Shown here piece by piece: positions 2,385 through 4,416 of a stretch of DNA of 10,304 nt. This stretch comes from Desulfonatronovibrio sp. (lineage in GTDB: Bacteria; Desulfobacterota; Desulfovibrionia; Desulfovibrionales; Desulfonatronovibrionaceae): NCBI GenBank assembly GCA_003558575.1, contig PWPY01000359.1, forward strand, positions 1-10,304. Direction: 5' to 3'. The stretch's first letter is position 1. Every line of letters begins with the position of its first letter. The notes beneath the pieces are model-generated. The model did not search any database. It saw nothing but the letters and a program-made list of their open reading frames with translations, and was not told the origin of the DNA. A program made the position numbers and the translations under genes.

Positions 2385-2915
2385 ATGGTGAATAGATACA
2401 AAATAGCAGAGCCGGATAATCAATTGTTTTCAATCTTTCTACGTGATGAAAGTAAGACTCTGGCTTTTGGTCAGGGTCTGGCCAGATTGTTTCAGGAGTC
2501 AGGAATATACCCGGCTATTTTGTTTAAGGGGGAACTTGGTGCCGGCAAAACCACAATGATCAGGGGGATTGTAAATGCACTCCCTGGAGGACAGGATTCA
2601 GAAGTAAGCAGCCCAAGTTTTAATATTCTGAATATTTATCCTGTAGAGCCTGAGGTCGCTCATTTTGATCTGTACCGTCTGGAAGGCAGGAATATGGATC
2701 CCGAGAGTGAAGACATTCTTTTAGACAGAACACGGCTGGTTCTTGTTGAGTGGAGTGAATTTCTGCCTGAGTGGGCTGTGCCGGATAATGTATTGTTTAT
2801 TAATCTCAGGATTGACCGATCAGGGCGTCTGGCGGAAATTAAAGCCATCGGGGATACTGGAGATCTGGCAAAACACATTGAGAACAGCCTGCAATCTGAC
2901 CTCACAGCATTGTGA
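2385..2915 (+). CDS. tsaE: tRNA threonylcarbamoyladenosine biosynthesis ATPase TsaE
   Basis: ATPase that works with TsaD and TsaB, making and resetting the complex that places the threonylcarbamoyl group on A37 of ANN-decoding tRNAs (t6A). The 176-residue protein shows Walker A GELGAGKTT at 49-57, the switch-like SSPSF at 75-79, HFDLYRL at 93-99 and VEWSEF at 121-126, all hallmarks of TsaE. It is somewhat longer than the typical ~150-160 residues, and the excess is at the N-terminus before LRDESKTLAFG. The start is uncertain: ATG 2385 or GTG 2388 fit, but neither has a good Shine-Dalgarno. The start codon lies in a 14-base stretch nearly identical to the end of the downstream mobile element, so the first residues may be derived from an insertion remnant. 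It follows the CBS gene by 50 bases. Confidence 0.93.
   Translation: MVNRYKIAEPDNQLFSIFLRDESKTLAFGQGLARLFQESGIYPAILFKGELGAGKTTMIRGIVNALPGGQDSEVSSPSFNILNIYPVEPEVAHFDLYRLEGRNMDPESEDILLDRTRLVLVEWSEFLPEWAVPDNVLFINLRIDRSGRLAEIKAIGDTGDLAKHIENSLQSDLTAL
2386..2399 (+). repeat. Copy of the MITE/IS terminal motif over the tsaE start
   Basis: TGGTGAATAGATAC matches the right terminal repeat TGGTGAATAGTTAC of the 2953-3105 element at 13 of 14 positions, in the same orientation. No matching left end or flanking direct repeat is visible nearby. It is either a relic of an earlier insertion that now supplies the tsaE start region, or a coincidence. Confidence 0.3.
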
Positions 2916-2944
2916 ACGTTTAGTGATTGACACATTGATTGCTG

Positions 2945-2952
2945 CAAGAAAA
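2945..2952 (+). repeat. Left copy of 8-bp target-site duplication
   Basis: CAAGAAAA sits immediately outside the left end of the 153-bp element and is repeated exactly, in direct orientation, immediately outside its right end at 3106-3113. This is the expected footprint of transposition with an 8-bp staggered cut. Confidence 0.8.
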
Positions 2953-3105
2953 GTAACTATTCATCATGTTCCAGCAAGAAGACCTGGACCCCGGATCTGG
3001 TCCGGGGTGACGGTTAAAGCAAGCTGTTACTCTTTACCGTCATACCGGCGAAAGCCGGAATTCAGTGCCATTGAATAGCCATTTACGTATGTGGTGAATA
3101 GTTAC
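2953..3105. mobile_element. 153-bp non-autonomous element (MITE), IS66-like ends
   Basis: The element begins GTAACTATTCATCA (2953-2966) and ends TGGTGAATAGTTAC (3092-3105). The reverse complement of the right end, GTAACTATTCACCA, matches the left at 13 of 14 positions. Perfect 8-bp direct repeats flank it. It encodes no transposase. GTAA-starting inverted repeats and 8-bp target duplications are typical of the IS66 family, so a transposase of that type elsewhere in the genome probably mobilised it (inference). The interior is a pair of inverted REP-like palindromes, so the whole strand could fold into a long hairpin. It lies in the 265-base gap between tsaE and lysC and ends 75 bases before the lysC start. 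Confidence 0.8.
2984..3065. repeat. Inverted pair of REP-like palindromes inside the MITE
   Basis: Unit 1 has a perfect 8-bp stem, ACCCCGGA (2988-2995) with TCCGGGGT (3001-3008), and a five-base loop. Unit 2 has the stem CCGGC (3045-3049) with GCCGG (3054-3058) closed by a GAAA tetraloop. The units are diverged copies facing each other: TGACGGTTAAAG (3008-3019) is mirrored by CTTTACCGTCA (3032-3042), and the outer edges are CTGGA and TTCAG. Twelve bases separate them. The layout resembles REP doublets found between genes in many proteobacteria. No U-run follows, so it is not a standard terminator. Confidence 0.65.
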
Positions 3106-3113
3106 CAAGAAAA
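3106..3113 (+). repeat. Right copy of 8-bp target-site duplication
   Basis: CAAGAAAA directly abuts the right terminal repeat and is identical to 2945-2952. Its perfect conservation suggests a fairly recent insertion. Confidence 0.8.
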
Positions 3114-3180
3114 AATAAAAAACTTTCAGATACAGGCTTAGCCTGCACTATTTAATATTTATTTAAGGGAGAGTTTCCGG

Positions 3181-4416
3181 ATGCGAGTTCTGGTTCAAAA
3201 ATATGGTGGGACATCTGTTGCCAACCTTGAGTGTATGAATAAGGTCAGGGAGAAGGTTTTAATCAGCTTAGATAAAGGTTATAAAGTCATTGTTGTCCTT
3301 TCAGCCATGTCAGGGGAAACCAACCGTCTTATTGATCTGGCCAGGCAATGGTCACACAGGCCTGATCCCTGTGAGATGGATGTTTTGCTGGCCACAGGAG
3401 AGCAGACCTCTGTATCTCTTTTTGCCATGCTGCTTAAGGATTGCGGTGTGAAGGCCAGATCACTTCTTGGATTTCAGGTCCCTATACAGACGGACAAAAG
3501 TTTTGGAAAGGCCAGGATTCTTGATATTGACAACGAGCGCATTGAAGAAATTCTTGAGAAGTATGATGTCCTCGTTGTGGCAGGTTTTCAGGGATGTGAC
3601 TGCAGCCAGCGGATAACCACTCTGGGTCGCGGCGGTTCAGATACATCAGCAGTGGCCTTAGCAGCTGCCATTAACGCTGAAACCTGTGAGATTTATACGG
3701 ATGTTGACGGAGTGTATACAACTGACCCGAATATCTGTCCTCAGGCCAGAAAAATTAAAAAAATAGCCTATGATGAAATGCTTGAAATGGCCAGTATGGG
3801 GGCCAAGGTTTTACAGATCAGGTCAGTAGAATTTGCTAAAAAATACAATGTTCCCATTCATGTTCGTTCCACGTTCAGTGACGGACCAGGGACTTTAGTT
3901 GTTCAGGAGGATAAAAGCATGGAAGCGGCAATGGTTTCTGGTGTAGCTTATGATAAAGACCAGGCCCGGATAACCCTGGTAGGAGTATATGACGAACCTG
4001 GTGTGGCAGCCAAGATATTTGAGCCTATTTCCCGGGCCAATATTGTTGTGGACATGATTGTTCAGAACCCCAGCAGGGAAGGTAAAACAGATATGACTTT
4101 TACCGTACCCAAGGGCAATGTTGAAGACACTTTGAATATACTTAAAAAGGCCCAGGCCGATATCGGGGCTCAGGCTATTTTACATGATGTTGATGTGGCC
4201 AAAGTTACTGTAATTGGAGTGGGTATGCGCAATCATTCCGGTGTGGCAGCCATAGCATTTTCCGCACTCAAGAATGAAAATATCAATATTATGATTATCA
4301 GTACTTCAGAAATTAAAATTTCATGCCTTATTGAAGAAAAATACACAGAGCTGGCCATCCGGACTCTGCATGAGGCTTTTGGGCTGGATCAGGAAGCTCC
4401 AAGAAAGGAATGTTAG
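3181..4416 (+). CDS. lysC: Aspartate kinase with two C-terminal ACT domains
   Basis: Phosphorylates L-aspartate with ATP, the first step toward lysine/diaminopimelate, threonine and methionine. The kinase domain (about 1-235 of 411) shows KYGGTSV at 7-13, LATGEQTS at 70-77, TTLGRGGSDTSAVAL at 146-160 and TDVDGVYTTDP at 173-183. Two ACT domains follow, about 263-338 and 342-405. This length and layout match the LysC class that forms alpha2beta2 enzymes, often inhibited by lysine plus threonine together. The region before TTLGRGG carries CDC in place of the usual acidic/Gly residues, a minor oddity. AAGGGAGAG ends seven bases before ATG 3181. An in-frame internal start for a beta subunit is annotated separately. 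The MITE upstream separates lysC from tsaE, so lysC probably has its own promoter between 3106 and 3170, although I see no clear match. Confidence 0.96.
   Translation: MRVLVQKYGGTSVANLECMNKVREKVLISLDKGYKVIVVLSAMSGETNRLIDLARQWSHRPDPCEMDVLLATGEQTSVSLFAMLLKDCGVKARSLLGFQVPIQTDKSFGKARILDIDNERIEEILEKYDVLVVAGFQGCDCSQRITTLGRGGSDTSAVALAAAINAETCEIYTDVDGVYTTDPNICPQARKIKKIAYDEMLEMASMGAKVLQIRSVEFAKKYNVPIHVRSTFSDGPGTLVVQEDKSMEAAMVSGVAYDKDQARITLVGVYDEPGVAAKIFEPISRANIVVDMIVQNPSREGKTDMTFTVPKGNVEDTLNILKKAQADIGAQAILHDVDVAKVTVIGVGMRNHSGVAAIAFSALKNENINIMIISTSEIKISCLIEEKYTELAIRTLHEAFGLDQEAPRKEC
3904..3921 (+). promoter_or_regulatory. Internal ribosome site and ATG for a LysC beta subunit
   Basis: Inside lysC, CAGGAGG (3904-3910) stands eight bases before an in-frame ATG (3919-3921, Met247). 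Translation from there would give a 165-residue product containing both ACT domains and no kinase domain. In Bacillus subtilis and Corynebacterium glutamicum the aspartate kinase beta subunit is made from an internal start at the same place, between the kinase and the first ACT domain. The Shine-Dalgarno is stronger than most in this window. Production of the beta chain here is inferred. Confidence 0.55.

Follow-up and report, generated by a model that had tools for sequence, protein, structure and literature searches.

How did a short, hairpin-rich stretch of DNA come to lie between tsaE and lysC in this Desulfonatronovibrio contig, and what kind of enzyme could have placed it there? The window, that is the whole stretch of 10,304 nucleotides that was analysed, encodes tsaE (2385–2915, plus strand; Pfam PF02367) and, downstream of it, the aspartate kinase gene lysC (3181–4416, plus strand; Pfam AA_kinase and ACT domains), and the gap between them holds a 153-bp MITE at 2953–3105. 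Its left terminal inverted repeat, GTAACTATTCATCA (2953–2966, plus strand), is of the type that ends IS66 elements and pairs with TGGTGAATAGTTAC (3092–3105) at 13/14 positions, just as the original prediction had it; read on the minus strand the right terminal repeat is GTAACTATTCACCA, and both ends start with GTAAC. The 8-bp target duplication CAAGAAAA is indeed exact and abuts both ends, at 2945–2952 and at 3106–3113. Inside the terminal repeats lie a left arm (2967–2983) and a right arm (3066–3091), both conserved across other copies. The claim that no transposase gene fits inside also held, in that no open reading frame of at least 80 aa lies wholly within the element; a 111-aa frame (2743–3078) enters it from an alternative frame of tsaE.

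Under a looser structural rule (an exact 8-bp duplication around ends that match at 11/14 positions or better and lie 60–1000 bp apart) the window contains a single such structure; at least one also turned up in 3 of 200 first-order Markov simulations, so that the structure taken by itself is suggestive only. The stronger proof comes from the repeat family to which the element belongs, through the counts of its end pattern and the duplications around most of its resolved copies.

Copies of the element and their target duplications

The host draft genome comprises 1.76 Mb in 360 contigs and is 78% complete. The search for further copies that had been proposed for it returned at least 40 scored matches, of which 33 reach into the MITE arms, six cover the core only and one (C232) is ambiguous; this division follows the query range, matches extending beyond 31–121 being counted as arms and four short fragment rows being excluded, and the copy number is a lower bound, 40 of 62 candidates having been scored. 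In the host genome the end pattern GTAACTRTTCANCA has 66 hits, and its reversed control has none. Among the genus mates it was found 60 times in G003, 39 times in G004, once in G001 and not at all in G005, and beyond the genus 33 times in G009 (same family) and 25 and 20 times in G025 and G020, which belong to another family. The sequence of the element itself matches four of the five genus mates (G002–G005, not G001) and 16 of 150 genomes, with at most five candidates scored per genome and with the host itself and distant partial matches included in that count. Exact right-arm patterns gave no match in collections of genome contigs and viral contigs, a search that diverged copies escape and in which records near the host may be absent.

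Target duplications were assessed in 26 of the 40 scored matches (L024, L025, L028, L029 and rows lacking a locus were excluded), 19 of which were resolved with both ends and flanks and seven of which were incomplete. An exact 8-bp duplication flanks eight of the 19 resolved copies, and 12 of the 19 agree at 7/8 positions or better; the remaining seven fall below 7/8. Control flank pairs taken from different copies reached 7/8 in 4 of 342 cases and 8/8 never. Ends were aligned without gaps in this comparison, and L008, which scored 3/8, has an 8/8 duplication by eye once a one-base insertion in its end is allowed for. The terminal repeats, the duplication and the multicopy family thus confirm the intact MITE with an exact target duplication that had been proposed here. 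In one copy, L006, the sequence of the left end (AAAAATGGTGACTATTCATCA) reappears in the right flank, as though another left end adjoined it.

IS66 elements with matching ends

An IS66-type transposase had been proposed as the mover of the element, and this is well supported by IS66 elements with matching ends, by the 8-bp duplications and by a truncated relative within the genus. IS66-family transposases lie between GTAACTATTCA[GC]C ends, which exact 8-bp duplications often flank. In the same order as the host, G054 carries a 1727-bp IS66 element with the ends GTAACTATTCAGCA and TGGTGAATAGTTAC, whose transposase is a 407-aa open frame with its N-terminal part in another frame, and G317 carries a 502-aa IS66 frame in a 1717-bp element with GTAACTATTCAGCT ends; around these two elements, the first to be found in the order, a clean duplication is absent. 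Among 348 genomes of the order, a protein search found relatives of the transposase in 10, including the genus mate G003, where a 190-aa transposase piece, 56% identical to the G317 protein, lies behind a perfect end GTAACTATTCACCA that is identical to the right end of the window element over 14 bases. The G003 piece is N-terminal and lacks the DDE domain; its sole Pfam match is DUF6444, which the N-terminus of the G317 protein also matches. All three proteins tested against NF033517 (NCBIfam, IS66 transposase) exceeded its cut-off, and the PF03050 domain is present in L128 and L114. At an E value of 0.001 no solved structure was found by sequence for the transposase. Between the MITE and the IS66 elements the common sequence is limited to the ends.

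The comparison of the termini with IS66 ends was extended with an alignment of the G054 and G317 transposases; of the 337 related stretches that it yielded, the 80 highest-ranking were kept. These loci come from other genomes in several phyla, many of them metagenome-assembled, and several are copies within one genome and so are not independent. GTAA..TTAC ends, chosen by inverted repeat alone, flank 52 of the 80 loci, and the other 28 showed no such pair. (The count covers all 80 loci, and the duplication played no part in the choice of ends.) An exact 8-bp duplication is present at 26 of the 52 end-bearing loci, compared with 2 of 2652 mismatched flank pairs. The commonest 13-base end is GTAACTATTCAGC, at 55 of 104 ends, and GTAACTATTCACC accounts for 4 of 104.

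Matches to PF03050 occur in 13 of 61 genomes, the host being counted among the 61, and none was found in the host draft, where at 78% completeness a missing or unassembled copy is possible. A MITE can outlast its transposase. The IS66 elements of G009 were considered as parents and rejected: this genome has 16 PF03050 matches, but the two loci inspected, L108 and L121, each show one weak end site and no pair.

A close parallel is provided by ISDge4 of Deinococcus geothermalis, a single-ORF, IS66-family member of the ISBst12 group that has been seen to transpose and, according to the available text of PMC12898284, bears GTGACTACTCAGCA and GTAACTGCTCAGCA at its ends together with an 8-bp repeat. 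The window element resembles that group in its near-identical ends, its 8-bp direct repeat and the single-ORF IS66 transposase of its autonomous relatives, and differs from the autonomous ISDge4 with its 449-aa transposase in being gene-free and in holding a pair of REPs (PMC12898284, available text). Taken together, we consider it very probable that 2953–3105 is a non-autonomous IS66-family MITE of the ISBst12-like, single-ORF type, mobilised in trans with the REP pair as cargo. A DDE transposase encoded elsewhere would recognise the roughly 14-bp ends GTAACT(A/G)TTCA(C/G/T)CA and insert the element with an 8-bp stagger, mostly at A/T-rich sites, leaving the flanking copies of CAAGAAAA. The 82-bp CGTC REP pair would be copied along between the ends, whether transposition proceeds by copy-and-paste or by cut-and-paste. 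That an IS66-class transposase moved this particular copy in trans, and when it did so, we infer from these likenesses.

REP hairpins between the ends

The middle of the element, 82 of its 153 bases (2984–3065), is filled by two REP hairpins that went unnoticed in the first reading of the sequence. Hairpin A (2984–3013, minus strand), a match to the REP pattern, and hairpin B (3037–3065, plus strand), which carries two substitutions relative to the family consensus, face each other with inward CGTC tags over a 23-bp spacer (3014–3036). Each agrees with CGTC REPs as described in the available text of PMC3733652, having a CGTC tag, a stem of 8–9 bp, a loop of 4–5 and a CCA tail, and the likeness to the published repeats (8-bp stems, loops of 4 or 5) extends to their occurrence in pairs. 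By the written definition given there, inward tags make a tail-to-tail arrangement, which is rare for CGTC REPs; the window pair does not have the head-to-head arrangement that predominates among them. The same text reports no transposase associated with CGTC-tagged REPs and describes REP pairs within longer palindromes in H. neapolitanus (CGTC) and A. variabilis (GTAG). IS66 is unmentioned in that portion of PMC3733652, whereas the window pair is enclosed by IS66-type ends that 8-bp duplications flank.

A strict CGTC REP pattern matched 62 times in the host, 72 times in G003, 26 times in G004 and 12 times each in G002 and G005, and returned 0 in G001, G009, G019, G020, G025 and G317; its reversed control returned 0 in all 15 genomes. 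Not every REP pair has MITE arms. In the six core-only host matches and in many regions fetched from G003 the pair is flanked instead by AGTAACTT...AGTTACT, and such pairs outside MITEs may either have been released from MITEs or be the source from which a pair was captured. Where a REP copy sits inside a MITE, movement of the whole package by IS66 transposase is the simplest explanation.

The combination recurs in relatives. Of 29 loci examined there, 16 have a pair of ends and 13 have none, although among the 16 L060 and L074 are one element, L053 looks spurious and L056 has a different interior. REP-like pairs lie between IS66-type ends in G002, G003 and G004, of the same genus, and in G020, G025, G029 and G033, of a second family in the same order, where the REPs mostly have stems outside the strict pattern. 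By inspection the REP stems differ on both sides, for example CCCCGG/CCGGGG versus TACCGG/CCGGTA. In the relatives' elements, where the duplication had some influence on which ends were chosen, it is exact at L055, L060 and L081, agrees at 7/8 in L059, L068, L093 and L105, and reaches 2–5 of 8 elsewhere.

MITEs of IS66 type that retain an intact target duplication are already known; the novelty here lies in the REP cargo. In the literature, surveyed by titles and the starts of abstracts and with subscription papers outside its scope, no description of IS66-bounded MITEs with REP cargo was found. The element suggests one possible way in which REP hairpins, for which a carrier was previously unknown, could spread around genomes, and with 33 of the 40 scored REP-containing host matches extending into the arms of an IS66-ended MITE it offers a specific and testable candidate for the spread of CGTC REPs. 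A wider reading, on which the evidence seems to us evenly balanced, is that CGTC REP pairs spread in the Desulfovibrionales as cargo of IS66 (ISBst12-type) MITEs, and that IS66 ends repeatedly enclosed compact palindromes, REP pairs and unrelated ones alike, so that these MITEs serve as vehicles for hairpin DNA. If several hairpin families do ride IS66 MITEs, some dispersed bacterial palindromes would have been spread by a carrier rather than through any role that they themselves play.

Several further repeats were seen alongside these elements. Other MITE-like elements share the IS66-type ends and have different, strongly palindromic interiors of at least five kinds (L034, L049 and L044 in the host; L086, L085, L096, L083, L094, L079, L090 and L102 in relatives), and several of them show 7/8 or 8/8 duplications, their ends having been chosen partly on the duplication. 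The AGTAACTT...AGTTACT flank marks a second, mosaic repeat that holds the same REP pair (L024, L028, L029 and L157–L159 in the host, L161–L171 in G003) and often adjoins another small palindrome (AGTTACTCACAGG..CCCGGG..AGTAACTT).

The tsaE–lysC gap and the rival explanations

In all five genus mates tsaE immediately precedes lysC, the two being separated by 13, 38, 59, 68 and 253 bp, and in none of these gaps are the element ends, the hairpin motif or CAAGAAAA present. The window gap measures 265 bp, which leaves 104 bp once the element and one duplication are subtracted. The comparison of orthologous gaps suggested at the outset thus bore out the absence of the element from all five genus mates, but the relatives' gaps are too diverged to align, and for that reason no exact empty site could be shown. 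The element-free gaps support an insertion within the host lineage.

The age of the insertion is a different matter. Set against the consensus of the 19 resolved copies, the window copy shows 97.4% identity, and against the nearest of them 96.1%; the closest pair among the 19 is 98.1% identical, and identity to the consensus falls to about 79% in the most diverged copies (copy starts and lengths were set by hand, 155 for L008). A contig end lies within 25 bp of 12 of 31 checked matches, so near-identical copies may well be missing from the assembly. The description of the element as recent and possibly still mobile is unproven, since present mobility does not follow from an exact duplication alone, no pair of the 19 copies exceeds 98.1% identity and no IS66 transposase was found in the 78% complete draft.

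The lack of an IS66 match in the draft leaves room for another DDE-family transposase as the mover, since 8-bp duplications are also made by other transposase families. We regard this as highly improbable: elements of the IS66 family, the one family covered by the comparison of ends, bear these very termini (GTAACTATTCAGC and GTAACTATTCACC among them), and the IS66-type remnant within the genus has the 14-base end of the window MITE. The REP pair might instead be mobile in its own right, as a REPIN-like unit served by a transposase of the Y1/RAYT type, with the GTAAC ends as a merely associated repeat. The pairs without IS66-type arms (6 of 40 scored host matches and many regions of G003) would fit this, as would the Y1_Tnp proteins in 9 of the 13 genomes searched. 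Like the REPINs spread by RAYTs, the window pair consists of two opposed REP hairpins and is multicopy and intergenic (PMC3116915, available text). The duplications, however, adjoin the GTAAC ends and not the REPs, no CGTC REP lies within about 1.5 kb of Y1_Tnp at any of 20 loci, and G009 (same family, assembled in five contigs) has 31 Y1_Tnp matches, many of them partial, yet no strict CGTC REP. The tag is CGTC and not the GTAG of REPINs, the mobile boundaries are of IS66 type, and Y1_Tnp has no match in the host draft at its 78% completeness (REPIN features after the available text of PMC3116915). A RAYT as mover was accordingly rejected and is in our estimation very unlikely; one of the 20 Y1_Tnp loci, L273, has a single IS66-type end. 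G009 also has 16 IS66 matches, likewise alongside no strict CGTC REP.

A third account would make the element a fixed, non-mobile hairpin that regulates the tsaE–lysC unit as a terminator, an attenuator or a stabiliser of its mRNA. Its position between two co-directional genes and its strong predicted RNA fold (−63 kcal/mol, z −7.1, with none of 200 shuffles as stable) are in keeping with such a role. Against it stand the absence of the element from the gap of all five genus mates, its presence at many other sites of the host genome and the exact target duplication that flanks it. A scan of 2700–3250 gave no sigma-70-like promoter and a single terminator-like site, on the minus strand, and Rfam returned no match at the gathering threshold in the window; a promoter or terminator role and a known RNA family were both discarded as candidates. 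We find the account of a fixed regulator scarcely credible. The insertion would place RNA with a strong predicted fold in the stretch that separates tsaE from lysC, and an influence on lysC is possible but unsupported, the original suggestion that its expression could change having found a strong predicted fold and no promoter-like site.

As a multicopy bacterial MITE with one copy within an operon, Chunjie of Geobacter uraniireducens is comparable (PMC10969869, available text), at 235 bp as against 153 bp here; the comparison covers copy number, length and siting.

Two minor observations concern the neighbouring gene and the hairpins themselves. The lysC reading frame of G005 (L143) contains one TGA, possibly an assembly error or the mark of a broken gene. 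In five distinct REPs (L040, L048, L159, L153 and L066) a second hairpin sits in the loop, as against 134 distinct contexts of usual length among the loci scanned, and two of these five carry the same insert with an inner CGTC tag.
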